The translations under genes and the position numbers were made by a program. DNA of 64,000 nt from Streptomyces sp. KMM 9044 (GTDB taxonomy: Bacteria; Actinomycetota; Actinomycetes; Streptomycetales; Streptomycetaceae), in NCBI RefSeq assembly GCF_024701375.2, contig NZ_CP113910.1:7253620-7317619 (forward strand), in the 5' to 3' direction. Shown here one piece after another: positions 4,048 to 58,181 of this stretch. The notes beneath the pieces are model-generated. The model was not told the origin of the DNA. It did no database searches and saw nothing but the letters and a program-made list of their open reading frames with translations. Every line of letters begins with the position of its first letter. The stretch's first letter is position 1.

Positions 4048-4081
4048 CCACCGCACCCACGAGACCCACGCAGGAAACCCC

Positions 4082-6110: not shown

Positions 6111-6127
6111 CCATCTGCAGCGAGGAG

Positions 6128-7321
<1,194 letters not shown>

Positions 7322-8873: not shown

Positions 8874-9480
8874 CAAACGGTGTCCACGATCCGGGGTCAA
8901 GCCCCGTGAACCGGTTCAACCGCCGCTGGGCGTTCCGCAACACCGAATTGAGCAGCTGGATCAAGGCGGCCCTCCATGCACTGGCCGCCGACGAGCGGCG
9001 CTCAGCGTTCCGGCCAACGCTGTGGCATCAGAATCCCGGCTCCGGCGCGGGGCCGGGAGCTGAAGCAGGTGTGGTTCGCCGGGGTTCACCGCGATGCCGG
9101 TGGCGGTTACAAGGGGACGGGACTGTCCGACATCGCCCTGCTGTGGATGGTCGGCCAGGTACGCAGGCACGGGATGGAGTTCGACGCCGATGCGCTCAGC
9201 ACGGACGGGCCACGGGTGATACCGCCTCAGGGAAGCATCGGCTTCCGCGTACGGCCGGACGGTTCGGGGCTCTCCACGCCTCGCGGACGGGCATGTACCG
9301 ACTGGCCAAGACGCTGCACCGGCCGCTCGGAGAGGCGGTGAACGACGGCGGCGAGCCCGACGGCAACGAGTTCCTGGCGGTGCCTGCCAAGGAGTACTAC
9401 GACCGGAGCACGGGCTACCGGCCACCGGGGCTGGAGCGCTGTGCGGGCAGGCAGGAGCGGGTCCGGCTGGAGCCCGTCCT

Positions 9481-18192: not shown

Positions 18193-18284
18193 GTTTGGTG
18201 TCGGTGGTGGTGAGAGTCGGTCGCGCTGGTCCAGGGGTGGGTGTTGATGATCTGCGGGGTTTTGTCGGTGGTGGTTCGGCATCG

Positions 18285-18441
18285 TGATGTCAGTGCGGGA
18301 GATACGGGGATTCTGCAGGTCAGTTTGTTGCTGTGCGGGTTTCGAGTGGTGACATGGATGCCGATCTGGGGCTGACGTTTTTGGCGTCTGAGCAGGTCAG
18401 TTGGTTGCCGGTCGGTACAGCGTGGAGCGCATTGTTGCTGG
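18285..18441. repeat. Probable end of a Tni-like transposon
   Basis: Non-coding. It holds spaced repeats CAGGTCAGTTTGTTGC (18316-18331) and CAGGTCAGTTGGTTGC (18393-18408), plus partial matches TTGTTGCTGGTCAGG near 18434 and GATGTCAGTGCGGG near 18287. Several short direct repeats next to a TniB-like gene are what Tn7/Tn5053-type ends look like. No second end was identified. Confidence 0.45.
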
Positions 18442-19476
18442 TCAGGGCCGTGGGAGTGCTCCGGTGAGCGCCGCCTGGTGAAGGCGAGCAGCATCCTCTT
18501 GCCGCAGGGGGCCGAACGCGTAGCGGATTCCTGTTGCGGTGAGGGTGAGTTGTTCTCCGTCTCGGGCGGTGATGAGGGAGAAGAGCGGGTTGTCCGGGGC
18601 GCGGTCCTTCAGCTGACTGTGGATGCGGGCGGCGCGTATGAGGGGGCGTGTCCAGGTGGGCAGGGGGTAGAGCCGGCATCGGCGGTGGGTGGTGCTGTCG
18701 TGGACTTTGACGGTGGTTGCGTTCTCGTCGATGTCAATGGCGCGGATGAGTGCGAGCCGATCGATGTCGGCTGCGGTGATGGCGTGGATGGTCAGGGCTG
18801 CGGCGTGCAGCGGGTGGGCCACTGTGGTCAGCCGGGTGGCGAGGACGTCTCGCGCCGTGAAGTCGTCTCCGTGCAGGGACGGTGAGGCGCTGCCAGGGGT
18901 ACCCGCGGGGGCGCCCTGGCACGGGGTCCGCGCGAGACGGTCCACCACTACGCCGTCCAACGGTGCTCGAGGGGGGGTCCATGGCCCGTCGTCTTGGCAG
19001 GGTGCGGGGTCGGAGTGCCGGTGCTGTTCAGGGTTCGGGATGTCGGCCAGTGGGTGTTCCGTCTGCTCCAGGGCGACGCGTGCGTGGGGGAGGGCGCCGA
19101 TGATGTGGTGCGGGGTCTCGTCGAGGAGCGTGGTCAGTGTGGGGCTGACCGGGCGGTGCCAGAGGAGGGTGAGGTGGATGCCGCAGCGTTCGCGGAGGGT
19201 GAGTAGTTGTCTCTGGCGGGCGGTGGTGAGGCGGTCGGTGCGGCAGACGATGAGGTGCCCGATGTGGTGGGTGAGGACCCAGGCGGCGACGGCGTCCCAA
19301 GCGGGGTGTTGGGAGTCGGCCCAGGTTCCGTGGGTTTCTCCGCCTTGAGGGAGGCGTTTGCCCAGGGAGTAGAGCAGGTCGTGCGCGAGGGCGGCGGGTG
19401 CGCCATTGGCGGGGCTGGGGTCGATGGTCAGACGTCCGATGGCGGGGCGTGTGCGGCATGTGCGGCGGCCGTCCAT
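18442..19476 (-). CDS. Hypothetical protein of the Tni-like module
   Basis: About 344 residues from ATG 19476 (MDGRRTCRTRPAIGRLTIDP). No family recognised. The N-terminal third is compact and globular (AWDAVAAWVLTHHIGHLIVC, LRERCGIHLTLLWHRPV). The C-terminal third (DIDRLALIRAIDIDENATTV, LIRAARIHSQLKDRAP, LTATGIRYAFGPL) is faintly like a tyrosine recombinase or targeting protein but lacks the R...HxxR...Y set. It lies directly downstream of the TniB-like gene and upstream of the putative transposon end, so a role in target choice is possible but unproven. A MITE sits just before its start. Confidence 0.55.
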   Translation of the reverse strand: MDGRRTCRTRPAIGRLTIDPSPANGAPAALAHDLLYSLGKRLPQGGETHGTWADSQHPAWDAVAAWVLTHHIGHLIVCRTDRLTTARQRQLLTLRERCGIHLTLLWHRPVSPTLTTLLDETPHHIIGALPHARVALEQTEHPLADIPNPEQHRHSDPAPCQDDGPWTPPRAPLDGVVVDRLARTPCQGAPAGTPGSASPSLHGDDFTARDVLATRLTTVAHPLHAAALTIHAITAADIDRLALIRAIDIDENATTVKVHDSTTHRRCRLYPLPTWTRPLIRAARIHSQLKDRAPDNPLFSLITARDGEQLTLTATGIRYAFGPLRQEDAARLHQAALTGALPRP

Positions 19477-19505
19477 GCGGGGTGGTCGTCTTTGTCGACG
19501 AGGAC

Positions 19506-19646
19506 GACTCTGTTGCTCTATTCGGGGGAGGGTCACGCACCGCGTCCGAGAGGGGCCGGCCGGGGCCGGACCGCCTCCTCGCGAGACCCGTTCCCTGCGC
19601 CCCGCCGACAGGCCGGCGTCCCTCTCCGCAATGGAGCAACAGAGTC
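19506..19646. mobile_element. MITE family 2, copy A
   Basis: 141 bp, flanked by 6-bp direct repeats GAGGAC (19500-19505 and 19647-19652). Terminal inverted repeats: GACTCTGTTGCTCTATT at left; the right end complement reads GACTCTGTTGCTCCATT. No coding capacity. Copies B and C are at 31563 and 59987. Confidence 0.85.
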
Positions 19647-19681
19647 GAGGACAGTGACGGCTGGGAGGCCGCTGGCGGTCA

Positions 19682-20379
19682 CTACATGCCGCCGATCTTG
19701 CTGTAGACCCAGCGCACGAGGTCTTCGTCGACCTGCCCGAGGTTGAGTTTCTTCATGCCGGCGAGGACGTGAGTGGTGATGTTGGCCCAGTTGCGGAAGC
19801 TGCCGTGGGCGGCCTGCTTGTCGATCGCGTCGATCAACGCGGTGTCCACGTCTGCCCACACGGGGTGGAAGGCGGGGATCGTGGCCCGTACCTCGTCCTT
19901 GGACATGCGGGTGAACTCTTGCCAGATGAAGATCCTGGACGCCAGCATGGGCTCGCGGCGCAGGACCTTGTAGCAGCCGTCGCCCCCGGCGAAGATCACC
20001 GCGATGTTAGTGCGTTTGTCGTCCCACAGGTGGCGCCAGAACTCGAACCCGGTCTTCTTCATCCACTGCGCCTCGTCGCAGACCAGGACCCGGAACTCCT
20101 CCGCGAGTGCCTCCTTGAGGAGGGTGTCGAACTCGATCGGGCGGGCCGGCGGCTCACCGGGCAGCCCCAGCGCCTGGAAGAGACCATGGCGGATGTCACG
20201 CGGGGTCGGTCCGGCCCGTAGTTCCAGGCGGTGGGTGATGTCCGGGGCGAGGTGGCGCAGCGCGGAGTTCACCGACATCGTCTTGCCGGATCCGGCCGGC
20301 CCGTAGACGCACATCATGGCCTTGGCCTCGATGACGGCCTCGATGTTGTCCCGGGTGGTCAGCAGCGTGTCGGTACCGA
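19682..20379 (-). pseudogene. tniB: TniB-like AAA ATPase, 5' end displaced by insertions
   Basis: AAA+ ATPase that in Tn7/Tn5053/Mu-like elements activates the transposase and selects targets. The Walker A is CVYGPAGSGKTMS, Walker B is VLVCDEAQWM, and a later ASRIFIWQEFTRMSKDEV fits sensor and lid regions. The open frame enters at LLVGTDTLLTTRD, where the IS630/IS5 stack begins at CTAG 20380-20383. Joining to 29412-29475 across one CTAG restores an ATG-started gene of 762 bases (253 residues) beginning MCDEMRTLCHLAAPTEPPAL. No transposase partner gene is seen. Ends just before the hypothetical gene of the module. Confidence 0.8.
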
Positions 20380-20383
20380 CTAG

Positions 20384-21475
20384 GTCCTGTCTGGGATTCG
20401 GATCATGAGTGCGGTGTGATGCTGCGGATCCAGAGCATCGCGCCGCAGAGATGGAGTCCGGCTTCGTAGCTCTGCGGGGTTTTGTCATAGCGGGTGGCGA
20501 TGCCACGCCAGTTGCGGAGCCGGTTGATAGAGCGCTCCACGGTGTTGCGGTCCTTGTACAGCTCGGCGTCGTGGGAGATGGGTCGGCCGCCGGCGCTGCC
20601 GCGCTTCTTGCGGTTCGCGGCTTGGTCGGCCTTCTCCGGAATGACCGCCTTGATCCCGCGTATGCGTAGGTAGCGGCGGTTCTTCCGGGAGGAGTACGCC
20701 TTGTCCCCGGCCACGGCGTCCGGCCGGGTCCGGGGCGTCCGACGGGGCCGCGGACCTTAATCCGCTTGAGGACCGCGGTGAACTGCGGGCTGTCACCCGC
20801 CTGTCCAGGGGTGAGGACGAACACCAGCGGCCGGCACCGGCGATCGGCCGCAACATGGATCTTGCTGGTCAGCCCGCCTCGGGAACGTCCCAGTTCAGCG
20901 GCTTTCAACCGGGCCCGGCGCCGTCTGCGGATCCGTCGTCGCTCGGTGCGTGCCTCGTCTTCGCCTTGGGCATCACCTTGTCCGTCCTGCGGCTGTTGTC
21001 CCTCCTTGCCGCCCCCTTTTCCGCTTCGGCGGCGGCCTCAAGGGCCGCCAGCTGCTCGGGATCGAGGACCATCCCGGCGGCATGGTGGTGAGCGCGGGAG
21101 GTTGCCGAGTCCACGCTGACCAGACCCATGTCAACCTGGTCACGGGCGGCAGCCTCGGCGATCATCGCTTCCATCACCTGCTGGAAGATGCCCCGCTTCG
21201 CCCAGATCCGGAAGCGGTCGTACGCACTCTGCCAGGGCCCAAACTCGGTCGGCAGATCACGCCAGGGAGCCCCGGTGCGGAACCGCCACATCGCCGCGTT
21301 GAAGTACTTTCGCAGATCAGGGATGGGCCCGACCGCGGCATACGGGAGATGGGGTTCAACCAGGGACCACTGCTCATCGGTGAGATCGCCTCGCGCCATG
21401 ACTCATGACCTATCAAGACCGAGCCTCCGCGCGCAGGCGATCCACCTAACTCATGATCTGAATCTCAGACAGGAC
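20384..21475 (-). mobile_element. IS5-family element (IS427-like), copy 1
   Basis: 1,092 bp between two CTAG tetranucleotides (20380-20383, 21476-21479). Ends GTCCTGTCTGGGATTCGGAT and, complementing the right end, GTCCTGTCTGAGATTCAGAT. Same length and nearly the same sequence as copy 2 at 28320-29411. Confidence 0.93.
20403..21399 (-). pseudogene. IS5-family transposase, copy 1
   Basis: OrfA (20905-21399, 164 codons) begins MARGDLTDEQWSLVEPHLPY and carries the first Asp (LVSVDSATSRAHHH). OrfB starts at 20908 (MKAAELGRSRGGLTSKIHVA) with an overlapping start, the usual IS427-type two-frame layout. OrfB loses its frame at the four-G run 20732-20735 (plus strand); its C-terminus (VAGDKAYSSRKNRRYLR, YKDRNTVERSINRLRNWRG with the catalytic Glu) lies in another frame. 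The partial copy at 37442 has one more base there and is in frame. This copy is therefore probably non-autonomous unless the run is misread. Confidence 0.85.
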
Positions 21476-22088
21476 CTAGTGTCCTGAGTCTTAGAAAAGC
21501 CATAGAAGTATGCTTGGCTCATGGCGCGCATGGGTCGGCCGACGGTCGAAGTGGTTCTGACGGATGCCGAGCGTGAGACGTTGCTGCGCTGGTCGCGGCG
21601 GGCGACGTCCGCGCAGGCTCTGGCGCTGCGCTGCCGGATCGTCCTCGCGTGTGCCGACGGGCTGTCGAACACCCGGGTCGGCGCGGACCTCGGGATCCAT
21701 CCGACCACGGTGGCCACGTGGCGCAAGCGGTTCGCGGTCAACCGGCTGGAGGGCCTGGCCGACGAGAAACGGCCGGGGCCTGCCCGCACGGTGACGGACG
21801 AGCAGGTCGAGGACGTGATCGTGCGAACGCTGGAAACGACACCGAAGGGGGCCACGCACTGGTCCACCCGGGAGATGGCGAAACAGAGCGGGCTGAGCCA
21901 GTCGACGGTCTCGCGGATCTGGCGCACCTTCGGCCTCAAGCCGCACCAGGTCGACACCTTCAAGCTGAGCAAGGACCCGCAGTTCATCGAGAAGGTCCGC
22001 GACGTGGTGGGCCTGTACCTCGATCCGCCCGAGCGCGCCGTCGTGCTCTGCCGGAGCCTGTCAATTTTGGTGAGTCAGGATTTTGCGG

Positions 22089-23267
<1,179 letters not shown>

Positions 23268-23284
23268 CTCCTCGCTGGAGATGG

Positions 23285-23937
23285 CTACTTCGTCTCGCCC
23301 GTGCTCGTCGCACCGCCAGTGGCGAACTGGTCCAGCAGTGCCGAGAGTCTTGACTGGACCTCGATCACCGTCTGGGCCTTGCCCAGCTCGTTCTCCAGCC
23401 GGGCGACCTTCGCCTCCAGGCGGACGATCTCCTTGGGGTGTGGCTCCTTTGGAGGGACGGCCCTAGCTGCGTGAACTGCGGCTTGAGGCACGCCCGAGTG
23501 ATCGACTCGACCACGACAGCGGGTCACGCGGTGACCGGCACCCTCCGCGCTGTCGATCTTGATGCGACGCGCGGGCGTGACCTGCTGGTTCCGAAAGGAT
23601 CTCCACGACCGGCAGTCGAGCCCAACCGGCAAATGCCTAGCTCAGCCTGTCCCTCCAAAGGAGCCACACCCATCTCCTTGTCCCGCGGATCGGCCTTCGG
23701 CCGCCCCGCCGGCGCGGCGAGCGCGGCCTTCGCGCCCGCGTCCCGCTGCTCCCGCCAGTTCGCGATCAGCGACGAGTACAAACCCTCCCGGCGCAGCAGG
23801 GCTCCCTTGCCCTTCTTGTCGAGTGTCTCGTACTCGGCGAGGATCCTCGCCTTGTACTCCGCGGAATACCGGCGCGGACCGGCTGAACGGGGCTCTACCT
23901 GCGGATCAGGGGTCCCGTGGTCGTTGATGCTGGCCAC
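23285..23937 (-). pseudogene. IS3-like transposase OrfA split by a MITE
   Basis: Same 135-codon OrfA as copy 1, interrupted at the codons for KEI by the 236-bp MITE plus 9-bp duplication ATCTCCTTG. Removing 245 bases gives exactly 408, the length of the intact gene. Copy 2 therefore has a broken OrfA but an intact OrfB. Confidence 0.9.
23436..23671. mobile_element. MITE family 1, copy in OrfA
   Basis: 236 bp; terminal inverted repeats perfect over 23 bp, beginning GGGTGTGGCTCCTTTGGA. Nine-base duplication ATCTCCTTG (23427-23435, 23672-23680). No plausible gene inside. Confidence 0.95.
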
Positions 23938-24477
23938 TTGGGCACTACTCCTTCTCCACCCTCAATACATCGAATCATCAAGTATGCCTGACCCGCCCAA
24001 GAATGACAGAGAGGGTGCGTCGATGAGAAGTCCCGGATACAGGCGCTGGACCGCTCGGCGCCGGTGCTGCCGATGATGCCCGGCATGCCCGAGCGCCGCA
24101 CCCACGACTACCTGCGCGGCGGCGTCACCACCTTGTTCGCGGCGCTCAACACCGCCACCGGCGAGGTCATCGGCTCCCTGCACCGCCGCCACCGCGCCAG
24201 CGAGTTCAAAAAGTTCCTCGCCAAGCTCGACAAGGAAGTCCCCGCCGGACTCGACGTCCACCTGATCTGCGACAACTACGCCACCCACAAGACCCCCGCC
24301 ATCCAGAAGTGGCTCCTGGCACACCCGCGCTTCCACATGCACTTCACGCCCACCAGTTCCTCCTGGCTCAACCAAGTAGAGCGCTGGTTCGGCCTGCTGA
24401 CGGACAAGCAGATCCGGCGCGGCGTCCACAAGAACGTCCAGCAGGGCCCCGGCGAGTGCCTGGATCGTCCGGTTTGA

Positions 24478-25803
24478 TCATGTGATGCCGTAGAGGGCGA
24501 GGGCGAGGGCGAGGGCGAGGGCGAGGGCGAGGGCGCGGGGGCGTTCGGTGTGGGCTCGTCGTCCGGCGGCGGTGTTGATGTAACCCGCGAGCTTGAGTGT
24601 GCTGCGGATCAGGTCGCGGAGGGCTGCGAGTACGGCGGGCGTGTTGTGGGTCCTGACCTGGGACTTGTCCTCGTTGAAGGTGGCATCGCGGCACCAGTGG
24701 ACGGTGTTTTCCGCGGTCCAGTGCCCGCGAGCCCAGGACGCGATCTCGGCGGCGTTCGCTTCCTCGGCGGGCAGGTCGGTGATCGCGTAGACGGTCTCGC
24801 TGGACCACTTCTTCGCCCCTGTAGAGGCGGCGTCTGCGCTGGATGCGCAGGACCTGGGCCGCGTGGGGAAGAGCAGGCCGTCGACGGTGACGACCTGCAC
24901 GAGCCGCTGCTCGTGTCGGCCGTGGCCCCGGGCGTCGTCACGGTGGATCACGGGGATCTTCTTCCAGGGCAGGGCGTGGAGCTGACGGGCTTGTGCGCGT
25001 TGGTTGTTCTTGATGGTCAGCAGGTAGTGGGCGCCGCGTTCGTGCAGGTAGGTGGCGTGGTCGCGTGGGGCATGGAGTGCATCGGCGGTGACGATCGTCC
25101 CCGCGAGATCTGCGTCGTTGATTCCGTCGAGGAGGGGGGCGAACTCGGGGATTTCGTTGGTCTTCGCGCCGATCTCGCGGGAGGCGGGCGTGACGCCGTC
25201 GCCGTGGCGGACGGCGGACAGGACGAAGACCCGGCTGCCGTCCGGGCGGCGGGCGCCGCGCAGGCACTTGCCGTCCACCGCGATCGCCCGCCGCCGGATG
25301 CGTATCGGGTCGGCGTGGGCGGCTGTCCGGTGGGCCCGGCGCTGTTCGCGCTCGGTGCCGCCGTCGGGCATGACCGGTTCCGGCCGGCGGGGCCGTGGGG
25401 ACAGCAAGGGCCGAAGGTAGCCATAGGCCGCCGCGCTGATCTCGCCGGGATCCAGGCGTCCCAGGACACTGGGCAGGGTCTTCTCGCTCGGCACCCGGTA
25501 GCGGCCGAGGAGCGGGTGGTAGGGCAGGCCGAAGGCGGCCAGTTCCTCCGGCGTCGCGCGTCGGCACCACTTCGCCGCCGCGGTGATCGAGTCGTGTCCG
25601 GACGGGGTCATAGCGCAGACCATCAGGGCCAGCAGCGAGGAGAGCCGGTAGCGCACCCCGCGCGCCCCTCTCGGATCGGTGACCGACTCGAACTCGGCGA
25701 CCAGGCAGTGGACTTGGTCCTTGGCGGCTCCCTCGCCGAGGGCTTCCAGGCGGGGCACCGCGCAAGCGGGGGCAGCGACAGGGGATGATGGAGGAACGAA
25801 CAC
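24478..25803 (-). CDS. ISAs1-family transposase, intact copy
   Basis: 441 residues. N-terminal DUF4338/H-repeat-type region (FESVTDPRGARGVRYRLSSL, LPSVLGRLDPGEISAAA). DDE core: Asp in RRRAIAVDGKCLRGAR, Asp in AGTIVTADALHAPRDHATYL, Glu in HWTAENTVHWCRDATFNEDK. The C-terminus is a tail of seven Ala-Leu pairs before YGIT. This is the only full-length frame among three copies; the others share a 1-base deletion. Confidence 0.93.
   Translation of the reverse strand: MFVPPSSPVAAPACAVPRLEALGEGAAKDQVHCLVAEFESVTDPRGARGVRYRLSSLLALMVCAMTPSGHDSITAAAKWCRRATPEELAAFGLPYHPLLGRYRVPSEKTLPSVLGRLDPGEISAAAYGYLRPLLSPRPRRPEPVMPDGGTEREQRRAHRTAAHADPIRIRRRAIAVDGKCLRGARRPDGSRVFVLSAVRHGDGVTPASREIGAKTNEIPEFAPLLDGINDADLAGTIVTADALHAPRDHATYLHERGAHYLLTIKNNQRAQARQLHALPWKKIPVIHRDDARGHGRHEQRLVQVVTVDGLLFPTRPRSCASSADAASTGAKKWSSETVYAITDLPAEEANAAEIASWARGHWTAENTVHWCRDATFNEDKSQVRTHNTPAVLAALRDLIRSTLKLAGYINTAAGRRAHTERPRALALALALALALALYGIT
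24494..24535 (+). repeat. Hexanucleotide array AGGGCG x7
   Basis: Seven perfect hexamers, in frame at the 3' end of the ISAs1 transposase (minus strand), encoding (Ala-Leu)7. Copy 2 has four (from 36008) and copy 3 has two (from 39263). Confidence 0.95.
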
Positions 25804-26164
25804 GGCACCTTCGTGGATCTTGAAGCGGAGAGAACTCCATGATCCACAAGTGCCCTGTTCACCTGCTTCCCGGGCCCACCCTCCAGATCAACACCCCAGA
25901 ACAGGATGTTCCCGACACTCGCCGGGGCCCTGGAACGTCCAGGCGTCGGAGAAAGACATCCGCGACTGGATCGCCCACTGGAACGAAGACCCCAAGCCGT
26001 TCACCTGGACCAAGTCCGCCGACGAGATCTTCGAAGGGTGCACATCTTGTGAGGGTGCGTCGTTGGGGTGATTCGTCAGGGTTCAGGTCTCGGTCGGGGG
26101 TTGCTGGTTCCTAGCCTCGTGGTGTCGAGTCCGGCTGTGGTGGGCGGGCGTTGAGCGAGGGTGG

Positions 26165-26673
26165 GTGGCATCTGTGCCGTCGTTGATGGCTGCCTTACAG
26201 GCCAGGGAAGACGAGGTCCGGGCGTCCGCGGCCGAGGTGCGGGCGCGGCTGGAGGTGTTGACCGCGGAGTTGGCTACGGCCGAGGAGCAGTTGGTGCGAC
26301 TGCGGATCACGCGGGAGACGGTGGAGGAGGTGTTGTCCTCACCGGTCGGCCCGGCGGTGCCGCCGGGGTGGTGCTGGATACGGAGGGGGCGGTGCTGCCG
26401 CAGTTGGCGGAACTGGTGCCGGTGCTGTTGGCCGCCGAGGCGGCCGGGGACACGACGGTGACCTCCGAGCCGTATCGGCGGATCCTGATCGTGTTCGCCG
26501 AGGCGTCCGGGCCGTTGCGCTGCAAGGACGTGTGCGTCGGGGTGGGGTTGAGCACGGAGGCGAACCACACCGAGGGCATGCGTGGCAAGCTGAAGAAGCT
26601 GGTCGGGCGGGGGATCCTGGCCGAGGTGGAGCCGGGGTTGTTCGGGCTGGCCTGTCGGGCCGGTGCCCGGTGA
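26165..26673 (+). pseudogene. ISKra4 accessory gene, frameshifted
   Basis: Same gene as 56129-56638, but with four instead of five G at 26364-26367, so the frame breaks after VPPG. The second half (AELVPVLLAAEAAGDTTVTS, then NHTEGMRGKLKKLVGRGIL) continues in the other frame. Confidence 0.8.
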
Positions 26674-26768
26674 GCGGCGGCGTGATCGGCGGGGATCTGG
26701 CGGCGGCGGAGGCCGCGTTCGCCGCCTCGCGGGGCTTGTTCGAGCAGGTCAGTGCCCGGATGTAGTCC

Positions 26769-28202
26769 GTGGAGACCGGTTCGTTGACGCACTCGCAGCT
26801 GGAGGAGGTGCTGGGCGCGGACATGCGGGAGGTGACGCGGCAGCTGTATCAGGACCATCTGCGGCTGCGGGAGCTGACCGAGCAGCGCATCGAGCAGGTC
26901 GTGGACGCCGCCGGCCGGGAGCGCACCAGGATCGAGCGGGGCCGGCGGCGGATCCTGTCCACGGTGTTCGGGAAGGTGACCGTCGGCCGGATCGCCTACC
27001 GCGGCGACGCCGTGCCGGATCTGCACCCGGCCGATGCGGCGCTGAACCTGCCGGCCGGGATGCATTCGCACGGCCTGGCCAAACAGGTCGCCATCGAGGC
27101 GTCCCGGGGCTCGTTCGCCGAAGCGGTCGAGCGCGTCAACACCCTGACCGGCGCCGGGATCGGCCCGCGGCAGGCCGGCGAGCTCACCGTCGCCGCCGCC
27201 GCGGACATCGACGACTTCTATGCCGCCCTCGCGCCCGAGCCGTGCACGGACGCCACGCTGCTGGTGATGTCGGCCGACGGCAAGGGCGTGGTGATAAGGC
27301 CGGAGGCCCTGCGGGAGGCCACCGCGAGAGCCGCCGCGGCCAAAGGCGGCAACAAGCTGCACAAACGCCTGTCAGCCGGGGAGAAGAACGGCCGAAAGCG
27401 CATGGCCACCCTCGGAACCGTCTACGACGCCGAACCCGCGGTACGCACCGCCGACGACATCATCGCCGACCCCGACACCGGCGAGCAGGACACCACCCGC
27501 CGGAGCAAAGGACCCAGGGCCCGCTCCAAGTGGCTGACCGGATCGGTCAACGACACCTGCTCCCAGGTCATCACCGCCGTGTTCGACCAGGCCGAACACC
27601 GAGACCCCGACCACCGGCGCACCTGGGTGGCCCTCGTGGACGGCGCACCCCACCAGATCGATCTGATCAACGAGCAGGCCGCCGCCCGCGACGTGCAGGT
27701 GCACATCGTGATCGACATCATCCACGTCCTGGAATACCTGTGGAGCGCCGCCCACGCCCTGCACCCCGGCGGCAGCAAGGACATCGAGGCATGGGTCGCC
27801 CGCACCGCCCGCACCATCCTGGCCGGAGACGCCCTGACCGCAGCCGAGACGATCACAACGGCCGCCACCGACGCAGGGATCGCCCCGGGCCAGAACAAGA
27901 GCATCGACGACGCCGTGGCCTACCTCACCAACAAAGCCGACTACCTGCGCTACGACACCGCGCTGGCCGCCGGCTGGCCCATCGCGACCGGGATCATCGA
28001 AGGCGCATGCCGCCACCTGGTAAAAGACCGCCTCGACATCACCGGGGCCCGCTGGGGCCTGGCCGGAGCCGAAGCCGTCCTGAAACTCCGCGCCCTGCGC
28101 ACCAACGGCGACTTCGACACCTACTGGGCCTGGCACGAACAACAGGAGTACACCCGCAACCACCAGGCTCGCTACCGCAACACCCTCATACTCACCGCCT
28201 GA
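26769..28202 (+). CDS. ISKra4-family transposase, copy 1
   Basis: 477 residues from GTG 26769. N-terminal helical region, then a DDE-type core: RTWVALVDGAPHQIDLINEQ, VHIVIDIIHVLEYLWSAAHA and WPIATGIIEGACRHLVKDRL, with LDITGARWGLAGAEAVLKLR at the C-terminus; these are the conserved blocks of ISKra4 transposases. Differs from copy 2 by G for D in ADGKGVVIRPE. Appears intact. The accessory gene lies upstream with about 95 bases between. Confidence 0.92.
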   Translation: METGSLTHSQLEEVLGADMREVTRQLYQDHLRLRELTEQRIEQVVDAAGRERTRIERGRRRILSTVFGKVTVGRIAYRGDAVPDLHPADAALNLPAGMHSHGLAKQVAIEASRGSFAEAVERVNTLTGAGIGPRQAGELTVAAAADIDDFYAALAPEPCTDATLLVMSADGKGVVIRPEALREATARAAAAKGGNKLHKRLSAGEKNGRKRMATLGTVYDAEPAVRTADDIIADPDTGEQDTTRRSKGPRARSKWLTGSVNDTCSQVITAVFDQAEHRDPDHRRTWVALVDGAPHQIDLINEQAAARDVQVHIVIDIIHVLEYLWSAAHALHPGGSKDIEAWVARTARTILAGDALTAAETITTAATDAGIAPGQNKSIDDAVAYLTNKADYLRYDTALAAGWPIATGIIEGACRHLVKDRLDITGARWGLAGAEAVLKLRALRTNGDFDTYWAWHEQQEYTRNHQARYRNTLILTA

Positions 28203-28319
28203 TCACACAGACACCCTCAAAAGATGCACACCCATCTTCGAACGCCTCGCCGGCTACCTCAACCGCCTACCGAACCCCAAACCCTAAATATGCGGTGCTT
28301 CTGAGACTCAGGATACTAG

Positions 28320-29411
28320 GTCCTGTCTGGGATTCGGATCATGAGTGCGGTGTGATGCTGCGGATCCAGAGCATCGCGCCGCAGAGATGGAGTCCGGCTT
28401 CGTAGCTCTGCGGGGTTTTGTCATAGCGGGTGGCGATGCCACGCCAGTTGCGGAGCCGGTTGATACAGCGCTCCACGGTGTTGCGGTCCTTGTACAGCTC
28501 GGCGTCGTGGGAGATGGGTCGGCCGCCGGCGCTGCCGCGCTTCTTGCGGTTCGCGGCTTGGTCGGCCTTCTCCGGAATGACCGCCTTGATCCCGCGTATG
28601 CGTAGGTAGCGGCGGTTCTTCCGGGAGGAGTACGCCTTGTCCCCGGCCACGGCGTCCGGCCGGGTCCGGGGCGTCCGACGGGGCCGCGGACCTTAATCCG
28701 CTTGAGGACCGCGGTGAACTGCGGGCTGTCACCCGCCTGTCCAGGGGTGAGGACGAACACCAGCGGCCGGCACCGGCGATCGGCCGCAACATGGATCTTG
28801 CTGGTCAGCCCGCCTCGGGAACGTCCCAGTTCAGCGGCTTTCAACCGGGCCCGGCGCCGTCTGCGGATCCGTCGTCGCTCGGTGCGTGCCTCGTCTTCGC
28901 CTTGGGCATCACCTTGTCCGTCCTGCGGCTGTTGTCCCTCCTTGCCGCCCCCTTTTCCGCTTCGGCGGCGGCCTCAAGGGCCGCCAGCTGCTCGGGATCG
29001 AGGACCATCCCGGCGGCATGGTGGTGAGCGCGGGAGGTTGCCGAGTCCACGCTGACCAGACCCATGTCAACCTGCTCACGGGCGGCAGCCTCGGCGATCA
29101 TCGCTTCCATCACCTGCTGGAAGATGCCCCGCTTCGCCCAGATCCGGAAGCGGTCGTACGCACTCTGCCAGGGCCCAAACTCGGTCGGCAGATCACGCCA
29201 GGGAGCCCCGGTGCGGAACCGCCACATCGCCGCGTTGAAGTACTTTCGCAGATCAGGGATGGGCCCGACCGCGGCATACGGGAGATGGGGTTCAACCAGG
29301 GACCACTGCTCATCGGTGAGATCGCCTCGCGCCATGACTCATGACCTATCAAGACCGAGCCTCCGCGCGCAGGCGATCCACCTAACTCATGATCTGAATC
29401 TCAGACAGGAC
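28320..29411 (-). mobile_element. IS5-family element (IS427-like), copy 2
   Basis: 1,092 bp between CTAG 28316-28319 and 29412-29415. Near-identical to copy 1 with the same orientation and the same four-G run (28668-28671) that breaks OrfB. OrfA is 28841-29335; the OrfB pieces are 28642-28844 and 28339-28650. Confidence 0.93.
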
Positions 29412-29415
29412 CTAG

Positions 29416-29475
29416 GAGCGCAGGTGGCTCGGTCGGCGCGGCAAGATGACATAAAGTGCGCATTTCGTCGCACAT
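29416..29475 (-). pseudogene. tniB: Displaced 5' end of the TniB-like ATPase
   Basis: Twenty codons, ATG 29475, separated from the rest of the gene by about 9 kb of nested insertions. In frame with the 3' part when a single CTAG is kept. There is no clear ribosome binding site, so an alternative start (ATG 29463) is possible. Confidence 0.6.
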
Positions 29476-29544
29476 GGTAATGATATGGATGTCGCCCCTG
29501 CCGGGGTGACGTGACTATTCGACTTCACGACGACAGGAGACCGC

Positions 29545-31374
29545 ATGAGTCCTGACTCCAGGACACGTTCCTCACTCGGACCGCTCCCCAGGCGGAGCAC
29601 TTGGATTGCGGGCAGCAGCCTTGCATCCCTGGCTCTCGTCCTCACAGGAATGGCTAGCCCGGCTCTCGCAATGGAGCACACTAAGACGGTTGCCGCCATA
29701 GCCTCCGGCACCAACCCGGGTGGCGACGGATGCCACGACGACCACTGCGACGACCAGGGCCACAAGGGCGATACCGGCCCCACCGGCCCCACCGGGCCGA
29801 CGGGTCCTGCGGGTGCTGACGGTGCGACTGGGCCGACGGGCCCTGCGGGTGCCACAGGTGCGACTGGGCCGACGGGTCCTGCGGGTGCTGACGGTGCGAC
29901 TGGGCCGACGGGTCCTGCGGGTGCCACAGGTGCGACTGGGCCGACGGGTCCTGCGGGTGCTGACGGTGCGACTGGGCCGACGGGTCCTGCGGGTGTCGAC
30001 GGTGCCACAGGTGCGACGGGTCCTGCGGGTCCTGCGGGTCCTGCGGGTGTCGACGGTGTCGACGGTGCCACAGGTGCGACGGGTCCTGCGGGTCCTGCGG
30101 GTGCCACAGGTGCGACTGGGCCGACGGGTCCTGCGGGTGCTGACGGTGCGACTGGGCCGACGGGTCCTGCGGGTGTCGACGGTGCCACAGGTGCGACGGG
30201 TCCTGCGGGTCCTGCGGGTCCTGCGGGTGTCGACGGTGTCGACGGTGCCACAGGTGCGACGGGTCCTGCGGGTCCTGCGGGTGCCACAGGTGCGACTGGG
30301 CCGACGGGTCCTGCGGGTGCTGACGGTGCGACTGGGCCGACGGGTCCTGCGGGTGTCGACGGTGCCACAGGTGCGACGGGTCCTGCGGGTCCTGCGGGTC
30401 CTGCGGGTGTCGACGGTGTCGACGGTGTCGACGGTGCCACAGGTGCGACTGGGCCGACGGGTCCTGCGGGTGCTGACGGTGCGACTGGGCCGACGGGTCC
30501 TGCGGGTGCTGACGGTGCGACTGGGCCGACGGGTCCTGCGGGTGCTGACGGTGCGACTGGGCCGACGGGTCCTGCGGGTGTCGACGGTGCCACAGGTGCG
30601 ACGGGTCCTGCGGGTCCTGCGGGTCCTGCGGGTGTCGACGGTGTCGACGGTGCCACAGGTGCGACTGGGCCGACGGGTCCTGCGGGTGTCGACGGTGCCA
30701 CAGGTGCGACGGGTCCTGCGGGTCCTGCGGGTGTCGACGGTGCCACAGGTGCGACGGGTCCTGCGGGTCCTGCGGGTGCTGACGGTGCGACTGGGCCGAC
30801 GGGTCCTGCGGGTGCTGACGGTGCGACTGGGCCGACGGGTCCTGCGGGTGTCGACGGTGCCACAGGTGCGACGGGTCCTGCGGGTCCTGCGGGTCCTGCG
30901 GGTGTCGACGGTGTCGACGGTGCCACAGGTGCGACTGGGCCGACGGGTCCTGCGGGTGCTGACGGTGCGACTGGGCCGACGGGTCCTGCGGGTGTCGACG
31001 GTGCCACAGGTGCGACTGGGCCGACGGGTCCTGCGGGTGCTGACGGTGCGACTGGGCCGACGGGTCCTGCGGGTGCTGACGGTGCGACTGGGCCGACGGG
31101 TCCTGCGGGTGTCGACGGTGCCACAGGCCCCACCGGCCCCGCCGGACCGCTGGATTCGCAGATCGTCTCCCAGGACTACAACGTCCTGTTGGGCGTCAAC
31201 GCGTCCTACGACAGTCCGGCATGTCCGGCCGGCACCACTCCCATTTCTGGAGGACTGTCTGCCGCTGGCCTCTCCACCGTCCTCGGGCAGAGCTTCCCGA
31301 ACGGAGACCGCTGGACCGTAACCGCGTCGGCGGGTGCCATCACCACCATTACGGTCTACGCGGTCTGCAGCTGA
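29545..31374 (+). CDS. Secreted collagen-like protein
   Basis: 609 residues. The start is fixed by AGGAGA at 29535-29540. Residues 1-42 are a signal peptide (basic start, hydrophobic [11 protein letters not shown], cleavage after SPALA). A short region with GCHDDHCDD follows, then about 460 residues of uninterrupted Gly-X-Y triplets built from [20 protein letters not shown] units. The C-terminal ~75 residues (from [15 protein letters not shown]) are a non-repetitive domain with two cysteines, a possible trimerisation head. Gly-X-Y tracts form triple helices, so the protein is probably a surface or secreted fibre. No LPXTG sorting motif or membrane anchor is seen. Monocistronic; a hairpin terminator follows. 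Confidence 0.92.
29758..31146 (+). repeat. Gly-X-Y coding tandem repeat
   Basis: Highly regular 9-bp-based repeat with larger units of 36-54 bp and a block of about 180 bp that recurs around 29980, 30160 and 30340. Such arrays change length by slippage or recombination and are prone to misassembly. Confidence 0.9.
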
Positions 31375-31894: not shown

Positions 31895-31945
31895 ATGTCC
31901 GAGCTGGAGCGGATCATGGCTCGCCGGAGCGAGCTGGACGCGCTC
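31895..31945 (+). pseudogene. 5' fragment of an unknown gene
   Basis: ATG 31895 follows GAGGAGGGAGCGGGG, a strong ribosome binding site. The 17 codons (MSELERIMARRSELDAL) look like the start of a coiled-coil protein. Cut off by the IS3-like element at 31946. Confidence 0.5.
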
Positions 31946-32023
31946 CCCTCTCTGTCATTCTTGGGCGGGTCAGGCATACTGGATGATTCGATGTATTGAG
32001 GGTGGAGAAGGAGTAGTGCCCAA

Positions 32024-32431
32024 GTGGCCGGCATCAACGACCACGGGACCCCTGATCCGCAGGTAGAGCCCCGTTCAGCCGGTCCGCGCCGGTATTCCGC
32101 GGAGTACAAGGCGAGGATCCTCGCCGAGTACGAGACACTCGACAAGAAGGGCAAGGGAGCCCTGCTGCGCCGGGAGGGTTTGTACTCGTCGCTGATCGCG
32201 AACTGGCGGGAGCAGCGGGACGCGGGCGCGAAGGCCGCGCTCGCCGCGCCGGCGGGGCGGCCGAAGGCCGATCCGCGGGACAAGGAGATCGCCCGCCTGG
32301 AGGCGAAGGTCGCCCGGCTGGAGAACGAGCTGGGCAAGGCCCAGACGGTGATCGAGGTCCAGTCAAGACTCTCGGCACTGCTGGACCAGTTCGCCACTGG
32401 CGGTGCGACGAGCACGGGCGAGACGAAGTAG
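32024..32431 (+). CDS. IS3-like transposase OrfA, copy 3
   Basis: 135 residues, intact, differing from copy 1 by a single residue near the start (G for S) and one near the end. Helix-turn-helix plus coiled coil as described for copy 1. Confidence 0.82.
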   Translation: MAGINDHGTPDPQVEPRSAGPRRYSAEYKARILAEYETLDKKGKGALLRREGLYSSLIANWREQRDAGAKAALAAPAGRPKADPRDKEIARLEAKVARLENELGKAQTVIEVQSRLSALLDQFATGGATSTGETK

Positions 32432-32448
32432 CCATCTCCAGCGAGGAG

Positions 32449-33330
<882 letters not shown>

Positions 33331-34641
33331 GGCTCTTGTGCTCTATCCGTGGGTCGGTTCGGAGCGCCTGACGCAGCACACGCCGTTCCCGGTGCAGATC
33401 TTGAGGTGTCTACGCCCGAGATCTGAGGTGCCGGAGGAACGGCGTGCGGTTCACCACGGTATTGAAACGGTTGGTCGGATGCGAGCAGGCGGTGCCGGAG
33501 GATGCCTGGTTCGACGAGGAAGCGCAGGTCATGGTGGTCGCGGTGCGTCCGAGGTCGCGGGCGCGTCGCCGCTGCGGGATCTGCGGGACTCGCTGCCCGT
33601 GGTTCGACGCCGGGGCGGGGCGCCGACGGTGGCGGCACCTGGACGCCGCCGGTCTGCCACTGTTCCTGGAGGCCGACGCGCCACGGGTGAGGTGCCGGCG
33701 TCACGGCGTGGTGGTCGCCGCCGTGCCCTGGGCCCGCCACGGCGCCGGACATACCTACGACTTCGACCAGCAGGTCGCCTGGCTGGCCACCGAGTGTTCG
33801 AAGTCCGCTACCGCCCGGTTGATGCGGGTCGCCTGGCGCACCGTCGGCGCGATCGTGGCCCGCTACCAGGCTGATGCGGACGCGGGGATCGACCGCCTCG
33901 CGGGCCTGCGGCGGATCGGGATCGACGAGATTTCCTACCGCAAGGGGCAGAAGTACATGACCGTCGTGGTCGACCACGAGACCCGCCGCGTGGTGTGGAT
34001 GGCCGAGGGCCACGGCAAGGAGGTCCTGCGGTCCTTCTTCGACGCCCTGGGCCCCGATCGCTCCCACCGGCTCACCCATATCAGCGCCGACGGGGCGGAG
34101 TGGATCGCCGATGTGGTGGCCGAGCGTGCCCCGAACGCCGTGCGCGCCATGGACCCGTTCCATGTGGTCGCGTGGGCCACCGACGCCCTGGACGCCGAGC
34201 GCCGCGAGGCATGGAACCGGGCCCGCCGCGAGGCGGCTGACCCCGACCTGGCCCGGAAGCTGAAGCACTCGCGGCACGCGTTGTGGAAGAACCCCGAGGA
34301 CCTGACCGCCCGGCAGCAGGCCAAGCTCGCCTGGATCGCGGCCAACGATGCGCGCCTGCACCGCGCCTACCTGCTCAAGGAGGGCCTGCGCACGATCTAC
34401 CGGATCGCCCGGGCCGAGGGCGTGGACGCCGCAGTGCAGGCGCTGGACCGCTGGCTGTCGTGGGCCAGACGTTGCCGCATCCCCGCCTTCACCGAACTCG
34501 CCCGCAAGGTCAAGCGCCACTACGACGCGATCCTGCATGCGATCGTCGAGGAACTGAGCAACGGGCTGATCGAGTCCACCAACACCAAGACCCGGCTGAT
34601 CATCCGCCGTGGCTTCGGCTTCCGCACCGCCGATGCGGTGG
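33331..34641 (+). mobile_element. ISL3-family element, right end lost
   Basis: Left end GGCTCTTGTGCTCTATC is typical of the family. The right end is replaced by the IS3 element A-prime at 34642, so no target duplication can be read. Confidence 0.8.
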
Positions 34642-34655
34642 GGGGCTTCCCCTGA
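33444..34655 (+). pseudogene. ISL3-family transposase, C-terminus truncated
   Basis: 403 codons. N-terminal zinc-binding region (CGICGTRCPWFDAGAGRR, then CRRHGVV), HTH (ATARLMRVAWRTVGAIVARY), DDE core with Asp (IGIDEISYRKGQKY), Asp (AMDPFHVVAW) and Glu (SNGLIESTNTKTRLI). The normal ending (…RTADALIALAML) is cut at RTADAVGG and the last codons come from the neighbouring IS. Only a few residues are missing, but loss of the right end leaves the element immobile. Confidence 0.88.
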
Positions 34656-34672
34656 AGCGTGGACACCGTTTG

Positions 34673-35563
34673 CTATGCGGCAGAGGCCAGCGTAGCTGAT
34701 CGCTGTTCGAAGGCGATCGGGCTGATGTAGCCAAGCCCCGAGTGCCTGCGTCGCGTGTTGTAGCGGGTGACCCACCGGAACACCGCGAGGCGGGCCTCGC
34801 GTGCTCCTGACCAGTGCCTCTTCCCTTGCAGGGTCTCTCTTTTCAGGGTTGCGTTGAAGCTCTCCGCGGCGGCGTTGTCCGCGCTGGTGCCGACCGCGCC
34901 GCGCGAGCGGGTCACACCGAGCCGGCGGCACACCTTCGCGAACTCCTTCGATGCGTATTGCGCGCCGTTGTCGCTGTGGAAGACCGCCCCGTCGAGGCTG
35001 CCGCCCCGGGTGCGGGCGGCGGCTTCGAGCGCGTCGGTGACCAGCTCGGTGCGCATGTGGTCGGCGATCGACCAGCCCGCGAGCCGCCTGGAATGCAGGT
35101 CCAACACCGTTGCGAGATAGAGGAATTGACCATCGCCGATGGGCAGATACGTGATGTCGCCGACGTACTTGGTGTTCGGTTCGTCGGCGGTGAAGTCGCG
35201 CCGCAGCAGGTCCGGCACCGGGGCCGCTTCCGGCTCGGGGATCGTGGTGCGGACCTTCTTGCGCAGGTGCACGCCCTGGAGGCCGATGCGGCGCATCACC
35301 CGCTCGACGCGCTTGTGGTTGACGTCGCTCCCGGCGGCCTTCGGCTCGGCGGTGATGCGCGGGATGCCGTAGGTGCCGTCGGACTCCTTGTGGATCTCCC
35401 GGATCCGCCGCGCGAGGCGGGCATCGTCCCGGGCTCGCGCCAGGCGGGCCGGGGCGGCCTTCAGCCACCGGTAGAACCCGGACCTGGAGACCTCCAGGAC
35501 CCGGCACAGCCGTTTGACGCCGAACGCGCCTCGATGATCATCAACGAACTGGAAACGGCTCAC
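34673..35563 (-). CDS. IS3 element A-prime OrfB integrase
   Basis: 296 residues, same length as element A OrfB with roughly one residue in seven changed. HTH_21 (LCRVLEVSRSGFYRWLKAA), Asp (KYVGDITYLPIGDG), Asp (VFHSDNGAQYAS), Glu (NAAAESFNATLKRE). Intact. Confidence 0.9.
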   Translation of the reverse strand: MSRFQFVDDHRGAFGVKRLCRVLEVSRSGFYRWLKAAPARLARARDDARLARRIREIHKESDGTYGIPRITAEPKAAGSDVNHKRVERVMRRIGLQGVHLRKKVRTTIPEPEAAPVPDLLRRDFTADEPNTKYVGDITYLPIGDGQFLYLATVLDLHSRRLAGWSIADHMRTELVTDALEAAARTRGGSLDGAVFHSDNGAQYASKEFAKVCRRLGVTRSRGAVGTSADNAAAESFNATLKRETLQGKRHWSGAREARLAVFRWVTRYNTRRRHSGLGYISPIAFEQRSATLASAA

Positions 35564-35898
35564 CAGTTGGTCTCGCCGGCGAAATACTTCGCGGCCCTCC
35601 GCAGGATCTCCCGTTCGGTTTCCAGCTCCCTGATCCGGGCCCTGAGCTGCTTGTTCTCTTCTATCAGCACATCGTCGGAGGTTACCTCGGCAGTCTGTGC
35701 CGCCCGCGGCGAGCCGCTGGTGCCCGCCGTGTGGCCCTTGCGGCCCCGCTCGGTGCGCACCCAGTTGCGCAGCGTCTCCCGGCTGATCCCCAGGTCCTTG
35801 CCCACGCCCTCGAACGTGTTCTTCGGGTCCGACAGGTACAGCGCGACAGCGTCCGCCTTGAACTCCGCCGAATACACCTTCATCACCATGCGTGACAT
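35560..35898 (-). CDS. IS3 element A-prime OrfA
   Basis: 112 residues (MSRMVMKVYSAEFKADAVAL). HTH (LGISRETLRNWVRTERGRK) and coiled coil (ENKQLRARIRELETEREIL). Overlaps OrfB by GTGA. Intact. Confidence 0.9.
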   Translation of the reverse strand: MSRMVMKVYSAEFKADAVALYLSDPKNTFEGVGKDLGISRETLRNWVRTERGRKGHTAGTSGSPRAAQTAEVTSDDVLIEENKQLRARIRELETEREILRRAAKYFAGETNW

Positions 35899-35956
35899 CT
35901 CTTCCTCTGGACCCTCAAGGTCCAGTGTCCAAGGTGTCCACGCTCAGGGGGAAAGG

Positions 35957-37428
35957 CAGGGCCCCGGCGAGTGCCTGGATCGTCCGGTTTGATCATGTGA
36001 TGCCGTAGAGGGCGAGGGCGAGGGCGAGGGCGCGGGGGCGTTCGGTGTGGGCTCGTCGTCCGGCGGCGGTGTTGATGTAACCCGCGAGCTTGAGTGTGCT
36101 GCGGATCAGGTCGCGGAGGGCTGCGAGTACGGCGGGCGTGTTGTGGGTCCTGACCTGGGACTTGTCCTCGTTGAAGGTGGCATCGCGGCACCAGTGGACG
36201 GTGTTTTCCGCGGTCCAGTGCCCGCGAGCCCAGGACGCGATCTCGGCGGCGTTCGCTTCCTCGGCGGGCAGGTCGGTGATCGCGTAGACGGTCTCGCTGG
36301 ACCACTTCTTCGCCCCTGTAGAGGCGGCGTCTGCGCTGGATGCGCAGGACCTGGGCCGCGTGGGGAAGAGCAGGCCGTCGACGGTGACGACCTGCACGAG
36401 CCGCTGCTCGTGTCGGCCGTGGCCCCGGGCGTCGTCACGGTGGATCACGGGGATCTTCTTCCAGGGCAGGGCGTGGAGCTGACGGGCTTGTGCGCGTTGG
36501 TTGTTCTTGATGGTCAGCAGGTAGTGCGCGCCGCGTTCGTGCAGGTAGGTGGCGTGGTCGCGTGGGGCATGGAGTGCATCGGCGGTGACGATCGTCCCCG
36601 CGAGATCTGCGTCGTTGATTCCGTCGAGGAGGGGGCGAACTCGGGGATTTCGTTGGTCTTCGCGCCGATCTCGCGGGAGGCGGGCGTGACGCCGTCGCCG
36701 TGGCGGACGGCGGACAGGACGAAGACCCGGCTGCCGTCCGGGCGGCGGGCGCCGCGCAGGCACTTGCCGTCCACCGCGATCGCCCGCCGCCGGATGCGTA
36801 CCGGATCGGCGTGGGCGGCTGTCCGGTGGGCCCGGCGCTGTTCACGCTCGGTGCCGCCGTCGGGCATGACCGGTTCCGGCCGGCGGGGCCGTGGGGACAG
36901 CAAGGGCCGAAGGTAGCCATAGGCCGCCGCGCTGATCTCGCCGGGATCCAGGCGTCCCAGGACACTGGGCAGAGTCTTCTCGCTCGGCACCCGGTAGCGG
37001 CCGAGGAGCGGATGGTAGGGCAGGCCGAAGGCGGCCAGTTCCTCCGGCGTCGCGCGTCGGCACCACTTCGCCGCCGCGGTGATCGAGTCGTGTCCGGACG
37101 GGGTCATAGCGCAGACCATCAGGGCCAGCAGCGAGGAGAGCCGGTAGCGCACCCCGCGCGCCCCTCTCGGATCGGTGACCGACTCGAACTCGACGATCAG
37201 GTCACGGACTTGGTCCTTGGCGGCTCCCTCGCCGAGGGCTTCCAGGCGGGGCACCGCGCAAGCGGGGGCAGCGACAGGGGATGATGGAGGAACGAACACG
37301 GCACCTTCGTGGATCTTGAAGCGGAGAGAACTCCATGATCCACAAGTGCCCTGTTCACCTGCTTCCCGGGCCCACCCTCCAGATCAACACCCCAGAACAG
37401 GATGTTCCCGACACTCGCCGGGGCCCTG
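35957..37428 (-). mobile_element. ISAs1-family element, copy 2
   Basis: 1,472 bp; 10-bp duplication GGGGGAAAGG (35947-35956, 37429-37438). The length is 1,491 minus three hexamers minus one deleted base, as expected from copy 1. Inserted in the terminal repeat of element A-prime. Confidence 0.94.
35993..37299 (-). pseudogene. ISAs1 transposase, copy 2, frameshifted
   Basis: The frame from 37299 (MFVPPSSPVAAPACAVPRLE) breaks at PEFAPSSTES, where a run of six G in copy 1 (plus strand) has five here. The remainder (LLDGINDADLAGTIVTADAL onward) lies in the other frame. Four Ala-Leu pairs at the C-terminus. Confidence 0.9.
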
Positions 37429-37441
37429 GGGGGAAAGGCCC

Positions 37442-37814
37442 GTCCGCGGCCCCGTCGGACGCCCCCGGACCCGGCCGGACGCCGTGGCCGGGGACAAGGC
37501 GTACTCCTCCCGGAAGAACCGCCGCTACCTACGCATACGCGGGATCAAGGCGGTCATTCCGGAGAAGGCCGACCAAGCCGCGAACCGCAAGAAGCGCGGC
37601 AGCGCCGGCGGCCGACCCATCTCCCACGACGCCGAGCTGTACAAGGACCGCAACACCGTGGAGCGCTGTATCAACCGGCTCCGCAACTGGCGTGGCATCG
37701 CCACCCGCTATGACAAAACCCCGCAGAGCTACGAAGCCGGACTCCATCTCTGCGGCGCGATGCTCTGGATCCGCAGCATCACACCGCACTCATGATCCGA
37801 ATCCCAGACAGGAC
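37442..37814 (+). mobile_element. IS5-family element, copy 3, 3' remnant
   Basis: Right part of the IS5 element in the opposite orientation to copies 1 and 2, ending CAGACAGGAC then CTAG (37815-37818). Its OrfB tail is in frame (RGPVGRPRTRPDAVAGDKAY), thanks to five C at 37462-37466 where copies 1 and 2 have four. Confidence 0.9.
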
Positions 37815-38047
37815 CTAGGCGTGTAGCCGCCGTCCGCTTGAACGGCCGGCCCGTTACACCTACTGGGTGTATCCCCCTCTCTGAGACCGTGTCCTGACGC
37901 CCGACTCAGCTGACCCATAACAAGAATCGGTGTTGCGCCGACCATCTTTGAGTCGAAGTACCTAAAGCAATTACGGCTACTTCTTCCCAGGTGATTCGCG
38001 CTTCCATCGTCATGCTGGATTGGAAACTCGAAGATAGGTCCAGAAAA
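37815..38047. other. Upstream region of the glycosyltransferase gene
   Basis: About 230 bases of lower GC than the surroundings. No gene. It probably holds the promoter for the next gene; no consensus boxes can be assigned safely. Confidence 0.4.
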
Positions 38048-58167: not shown

Positions 58168-58181
58168 TCACACAGACACCC

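Follow-up and report, generated by a model that had tools for sequence, protein, structure and literature searches.

Can a gene that has been broken by nested insertion sequences (IS) be restored by removing these elements one after the other? This question is raised by a locus at the right end of the chromosome of Streptomyces sp. KMM 9044, where the 3' part of a TniB/TnsC-like ATPase gene is followed by an IS5-family element, an IS630 element with further elements inside it, and a second IS5 copy (positions 19682-29475). The window analysed here, to which all coordinates refer unless a contig is named, comprises the final 64,000 nt of the 7,317,619-nt contig C1, in a genome of three contigs and 7.43 Mb. 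A first-pass annotation of this DNA had proposed that excision of all elements at their target duplications restores two proteins exactly. We find that this is correct for the IS630 transposase and incorrect for the ATPase, of which an intact copy elsewhere in the genome has a different 5' end. Very probably, ordinary insertion sequences piled up here near the right terminus of the chromosome, and the stack was cut by an inversion between two IS5 copies, with later loss of the 5' part of the ATPase gene.

The ATPase gene and its intact copy on contig C3

An uninterrupted copy of the ATPase gene, encoding 258 aa, is located at positions 7840-8616 of contig C3. We interpret this contig, 108,853 nt long and bounded by terminal inverted repeats of 7.4 kb, as a linear plasmid. 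The window holds the last 701 nt of the gene on the minus strand (19682-20382), namely the last 2 nt of codon 26, codons 27-258 and the stop codon, and lacks the first 76 nt. Over these common 701 nt both copies are identical (783 nt match at 100% identity). The first 25 codons do not occur in the window, in which none of the 470 15-mers of C3 7431-7914 is found. The own-genome DNA searches scored the best 40 of 329 candidates for the TniB 5' query, of 169 for IS5, of 175 for IS630 and of 224 in a further search, so that the copy numbers given below are lower bounds. Within this scope, the TniB 5' region (query positions 1-485) was found on C3 only and nowhere on the chromosome. The one chromosomal match considered as a possible home of the 5' part (C1:743089-744667) was rejected, as it covers only query positions 502-2081, on the transposase side.

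According to the first-pass annotation, IS630 had entered the TA of a CTAG in the TniB-like gene. In window orientation the corresponding site on C3 reads GACTAACTGG, which is CTAA and not CTAG, and neither TA nor CTAG is present at this site in any of 15 further homologues from three plasmids and twelve genomes (L067-L078). These were drawn from a DNA search with the TniB site that matched 151 of 295 genomes, mostly with short and weak hits, of which 12 were used, and from 32 matching plasmid records, in three of which the site was read. Beyond the TA, C3 and the close relatives run on into a conserved N-terminus; in the window, different DNA follows once the right IS5 has ended.

Pfam identifies an AAA_22 domain in the intact protein of C3 (PF13401, 2.1e-22). 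No named TniB/TnsC model was matched in Pfam (E up to 0.01) or NCBIfam (E up to 0.001, 0 families), and no PDB sequence was matched at E ≤ 0.01.

The right flank belongs to a collagen-like gene region

The DNA to the right of the second IS5, previously assigned to the ATPase gene, is instead part of the region of a collagen-like gene. Upstream region and gene occupy 29415-31374 on the plus strand (ORF 29545-31374, Pfam Collagen), and the supposed 5' piece of the ATPase falls in the upstream region. The segment 29416-29760 occurs once in this genome among the matches listed and has no match in the plasmid records. It matched 20 of 295 genomes, four of them strongly (this genome, G264, G209 and G087) and 16 weakly, and in the three other strongly matched genomes it is the upstream region of a collagen-like gene. 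The first ~20 codons of the reconstructed 'ATPase' are upstream DNA of the collagen-like gene. A clean restoration of the TniB-like gene is ruled out by the intact gene on C3 and by this identity of the right flank: the restored IS630 product aligns end to end with its relatives, whereas the N-terminal ~20 residues of the restored TniB-like product come from the upstream region of another gene.

The divergent neighbour of the collagen-like gene in relatives, a glycosyltransferase gene (37991-39166, plus strand), is present further to the right together with its upstream flank (37819-39166). A scan of named genome contigs with this gene returned nine loci. In all four closest ones (L105-L108: Streptomyces lacrimifluminis, SID12488, NRRL WC-3618 and AC1-42W; 88-91% protein identity), the collagen-like gene adjoins the glycosyltransferase gene divergently, with the aligned parts 133-165 nt apart. 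A fifth locus (L109) has a weak upstream match in the same place and the remaining four have none. On the collagen side, homology begins at 29423 in Streptomyces lacrimifluminis and at 29438-29453 in the three other relatives; on the glycosyltransferase side it begins at 37892 (37894 in L108), beyond a truncated IS5. In the window, 8.4 kb separate the facing flanks of this intergenic region, the orientation of the collagen-like gene relative to its neighbour is reversed, and each breakpoint carries an IS5, one of them truncated.

Elements nested within IS630

The inner architecture of the nest was described correctly by the first-pass annotation, in which the positions of both IS5 copies and of the IS3-like element, the miniature inverted-repeat transposable element (MITE), the ISAs1 and the ISKra4 were all accurate and all four target duplications exact. 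IS630 is present on the plus strand in four pieces (21479-22051, 24019-24441, 25943-26035 and 28243-28316), the last of which carries the right end of the element and is followed by TA. At least two near-identical further copies (L087 and L088) reside in this chromosome. The window pieces 21476-22051, 24016-24441, 25933-26035 and 28234-28318 tile both copies over their full length, with overlaps of 3 nt at the IS3-like site, 10 nt at the ISAs1 site and 9 nt at the ISKra4 site; the alignment is gapless against L088, and its single gap against L087 falls in the flank, beyond the IS630 itself. A plasmid-borne IS630 of Streptomyces sp. NBC_00316 gives the same overlaps at 83-94% identity, with the last aligned piece extending beyond the element. 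Each coding piece (21521-22051, 24019-24441, 25943-26035 and 28243-28287) has a length divisible by three, and together they add up in frame to 1,092 nt with a terminal stop only, as had been counted before. Compared with the intact L087, 360 of 364 codons translate identically, stop included, which leaves four residue differences; the reading frame of L088 is broken early. The L087 transposase matches the NCBIfam model NF033545 (2.8e-75, 253.5 bits, cut-off 100).

Three elements are located within IS630, each with its own target duplication. The IS3-like element (22052-24015, minus strand; NCBIfam transpos_IS3, NF033516, 185.4 bits, cut-off 160) is flanked by TGC at 22049-22051 and 24016-24018, a duplication that is confirmed on intact IS630. 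The ISAs1 element (24442-25932, minus strand; NCBIfam ISAs1, NF033564, 134.8 bits, cut-off 70) lies between 10-nt copies of GAACGTCCAG (24432-24441 and 25933-25942); the ISAs1 family makes duplications of 8-10 nt. The ISKra4 element (26036-28233, plus strand; NCBIfam ISKra4, NF033572, 305.5 bits, cut-off 205) lies between 9-nt copies of ATCTTCGAA (26027-26035 and 28234-28242), and a second copy is found at 56000-58199. Inside the IS3-like element, the MITE (23436-23671, plus strand) forms a 236-nt insertion with the 9-nt duplication ATCTCCTTG. The window contains two copies of the IS3-like element that lack the MITE (5624-7359 and 31945-33330), and both show the empty site with a 9-nt overlap.

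Because intact IS630 copies and two MITE-free IS3-like copies exist, the nested order is well supported: IS630 came before the IS3-like, ISAs1 and ISKra4 elements, which may have entered in any order, and the MITE came after the IS3-like element. This inner part of the previously proposed timeline stands; its outer part, in which IS630 precedes two IS5 insertions, is one of several possible orders and is not forced by the sequence.

The genome contains at least 13 full-length MITE copies, one 198-nt copy and, on C3, one copy with 89% identity. At 55423-55857, two copies of this 236-nt element stand back to back, the first cut at 198 nt. Six-base repeats occur within the transposase genes of the IS3-like element (23150-23220) and ISAs1 (24490-24540), and the length of the translated run varies between copies.

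IS5 copies bordering the nest

The nested block lies between two directly repeated IS5 copies, with the 3' part of the ATPase gene to its left and the upstream region of the collagen-like gene to its right. The left copy (20383-21476, minus strand) has GG..CC ends and TA within CTAG flanks, and is 99.8% identical to the right copy (28319-29412, minus strand). The right copy, whose right flank is not TniB, probably represents the recombinant joint of the inversion. The truncated copy (37442-37818, plus strand) retains element positions 1-376, is inverted relative to the right copy and marks the second breakpoint. At least eight near-identical full IS5 copies were found in the genome. Their left flank is CTA in all eight and their right flank TAG in seven, the exception being L027 with TAA.

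The two further copies of IS630 are flanked by CTA/TAT and CTA/TAG. In the nest, TA is found at both ends of IS630, an IS5 adjoins it on either side, and the DNA flanking it on the right differs from the original target. A preference for TA in 5'-CTAG-3' is reportedly the subject of a paper listed among the references of PMC2170065. Since IS5 and IS630 both use TA and each is able to create CTAG at its own edge, either can enter the edge of the other, and both orders may leave the same letters. Judged from these letters, IS630-then-IS5 and IS5-then-IS630 would be indistinguishable here. Single-base differences among the eight full IS5 copies (12 variable columns) were uninformative, both for recombination and for the order of IS5 and IS630.

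Two distant IS5 copies (L028 and L029, C1 ~3,451,000 and ~1,643,000) have the same 24-nt flank on opposite ends, which may reflect insertion into a repeated target or another rearrangement. Where three further IS5 fragments (L032-L034) break off, the adjoining sequence resembles the termini of the IS3-type element at 7587-8905 or 34642-35953.

Proposed history and alternative explanations

The present arrangement can be derived in a few steps. The ATPase gene would have been interrupted by IS630, or first by an IS5, at the TA of a CTAA. The IS3-like, ISAs1 and ISKra4 elements entered IS630, as their duplications and the intact copies show, and the MITE entered the IS3-like element. Another IS5 probably inserted at a CTAG in the intergenic region from which the collagen-like and glycosyltransferase genes diverge. 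Homologous recombination between this intergenic IS5 and the inverted IS5 beside IS630 would have flipped the intervening segment and placed the collagen-like gene against the nest. A single inversion between oppositely oriented IS5 copies brings the collagen and glycosyltransferase flanks against opposite IS5 ends, as observed. A later deletion beside other IS copies would have taken the rest of the second IS5 together with the 5' part of the ATPase gene. We infer this deletion because the reversed 5' part is expected inside the truncated IS5, but a broken IS3-like copy, an ISL3-type element, a second IS3-type element (34642-35953) and ISAs1 are found there instead. The putative deletion zone extends from the end of the broken IS3-like copy (33334-37441), where the neighbours are truncated, an ISL3 domain is recognised and the ISAs1 has its own 10-nt duplication. 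As its 5' part would have been lost by deletion, the ATPase gene is presumably not recoverable from the chromosome.

Several points weigh against this history. The second breakpoint keeps only 377 nt of IS5, the reciprocal joint between IS5 and the TniB 5' part is not seen, and the deletion is deduced from the truncated neighbours. The relatives used for comparison are other strains, belonging to other species as far as they are named, and the pairing of the two genes is not universal: in G209 and G087, two of the three other strongly matched genomes, the collagen-like gene is present but the 20 kb compared contain no match to the glycosyltransferase. Directly beside the IS5 ends, 7-37 nt on the collagen side and 73-75 nt on the glycosyltransferase side are unmatched by BLAST and align only loosely. 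The absence of the 5' part from the chromosome holds for the best 40 candidates scored and is not proof. The IS5 copies differ too little to reveal a recombinant directly, and the joints sit at 1.1-kb IS5 repeats, where misassembly may occur.

An assembly error at these near-identical repeats would produce the IS5-flanked joints without any inversion, and the presence of at least eight near-identical full copies makes such an error conceivable, as does a third gene, discussed below, that is split over several frames on C3 and forms a single frame in the window, so that base accuracy may be uneven. The chromosome, however, forms a single contig of 7.3 Mb with a terminal repeat of plasmid type at its end, and among the best 40 of 329 candidates the TniB 5' search found no leftover chromosomal site such as a mis-join should produce; we consider this explanation very unlikely. 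Slightly easier to accept, and still improbable, is a history without inversion, in which an IS5-adjacent deletion or an inserted foreign block bearing the collagen-like gene replaced the 5' part of the ATPase gene. IS-adjacent losses are indeed evident in the region, as witnessed by the truncated IS3-like and IS5 copies, but this leaves unexplained why the partner flank of the same intergenic region lies 8.4 kb away, inverted, on an IS5 end. The original proposal, in which IS630 entered a CTAG in TniB, IS5 entered both new CTAG sites and both TniB halves flank the nest, has in its favour that the left flank is TniB, that CTAG flanks both IS5 copies and that the joined ATPase frame stays open for 254 codons by its own count. 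It is almost certainly wrong: the right flank is collagen upstream DNA in four of four close relatives, the true 5' part lies on C3 and differs in sequence, and the target there is a CTAA, with TA in none of the 15 other homologues. The intact C3 gene and the collagen-glycosyltransferase arrangement of the relatives together refute it.

IS accumulation close to the telomere with IS5-mediated inversion and loss, and not reversible insertion, is the best-supported outer story. It is ordinary decay near a telomere, well resolved. The case is also a warning about frames that stay open once elements are excised: 20 open codons upstream of an unrelated gene passed for the lost start of an ATPase, and the error was exposed by the intact plasmid copy in the same genome.

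The chromosome end and the linear plasmid

The rightmost part of the window (58199-64000) shares 99.9% identity with each terminal repeat of C3, and 18244-20382, which includes the ATPase part, is 99.7% identical to C3 10048-7916. From these identities we infer that the right chromosome end and plasmid C3 recently had a common end. On the left side of the chromosome, the match to C3 within the outermost 20 kb amounts to no more than ~1.35 kb, starting ~730 nt from the contig end, and the two chromosome ends therefore differ. The region matches 52 plasmid records, 32 of them from Streptomyces, and the 20 best listed are all from Streptomyces. The nest provides a resolved example of the way in which IS copies can rearrange a Streptomyces chromosome end whose terminus is common to a linear plasmid. 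A literature search turned up no account of the present nest, by which we do not claim that none exists.

The third gene mentioned above, whose frame is split on C3 and continuous in the window, is unmatched for its first 30 residues in the window. Between the ATPase gene and the next gene, inside the segment common with C3, lies a 143-nt MITE-like repeat with inverted ends (19506-19648); at least 39 partial matches to its last ~50 nt occur elsewhere in the genome. In the urease gene region (3715-5128), a 1,415-nt stretch is 99.86% identical to C3 97297-98711. A FAD-binding protein is encoded at 53570-54559. No drug-resistance genes were recognised by Pfam in the subset of ORFs scanned (30 window proteins and one further window ORF).

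Subtelomeric distribution of the ATPase family

Homologues of the ATPase (E ≤ 1e-40) were found in 91 of 392 genomes of the genus, this one included. Of these, 21 genomes consist of a single contig; in 17 of the 21 a homologue lies within 150 kb of an end, and in nine this holds for both ends. Counted by match, 27 of 31 lie this close to an end, with genome sizes rounded to 0.1 Mb. In the remaining four genomes, G007, G110, G118 and G253, no match is near an end. The TniB/TnsC-like ATPase family is strongly subtelomeric in the sampled genomes, often at both ends, and the present locus adds a broken member to it that was recently shared with a plasmid.

In a relative (L020), the ATPase gene adjoins a transposase gene (5303-6826) with rve and Mu C-terminal domains, the DDE type of TniA/TnsB; in a second relative the neighbour is annotated merely as a transposase family protein. 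The transposase homologue upstream of the ATPase gene on C3 has a broken frame. At least three frame-broken copies of this neighbouring gene are present in the genome (C3 6327-7837 and 101432-102534; C1 ~743,000), two of which are also truncated.

Comparison with known systems

The IS5 copies resemble IS5-family elements in their CTAG-type targets and in the best NCBIfam match of the right copy, of which two ORF parts score 108 and 81 bits with model NF033580. They differ in that each part remains below the 110-bit cut-off and in that the longest open stretch on the transposase strand measures 211-252 aa across the eight full copies, compared with 258 for the model. IS630 shares its transposase family and TA flanks with IS630/Tc1/mariner elements such as IS630 and ISY100, for which a TA duplication is stated in PMC2170065. 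The window copy differs in being broken by three insertions, with its right TA placed against an IS5 instead of the original target.

Telomeric transposons are reportedly the subject of Hsieh et al. (Science 2025), cited in a passage of PMC12669027. The subtelomeric pattern of the ATPase fits this published notion. The ATPase beside an rve/Mu-C transposase in a relative and the position near replicon ends would be shared features; a difference is that all three copies of the transposase gene found in the present genome have a broken frame. It is possible, although we hold it with less than even confidence, that the nest records how a telomere-associated transposon died out after its chromosome end had been exchanged with that of a linear plasmid: the terminal repeat was kept at 99.9% identity, the chromosomal ATPase gene was removed by IS insertion and inversion between IS5 copies, and the transposase was frame-broken in the three copies found. 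If so, the locus would show, at a stage that can be dated, a replicon end that has survived its accompanying transposon.

At Streptomyces chromosome ends, inversions in terminal repeats as well as telomere exchange and rearrangement are described in PMC7205883. The present end, 99.9% identical to the terminal sequence of a linear plasmid, is similar to what is described there. The main text of that paper contains neither 'transpos' nor 'insertion sequence', whereas at the locus studied here the breakpoints are resolved to IS5.

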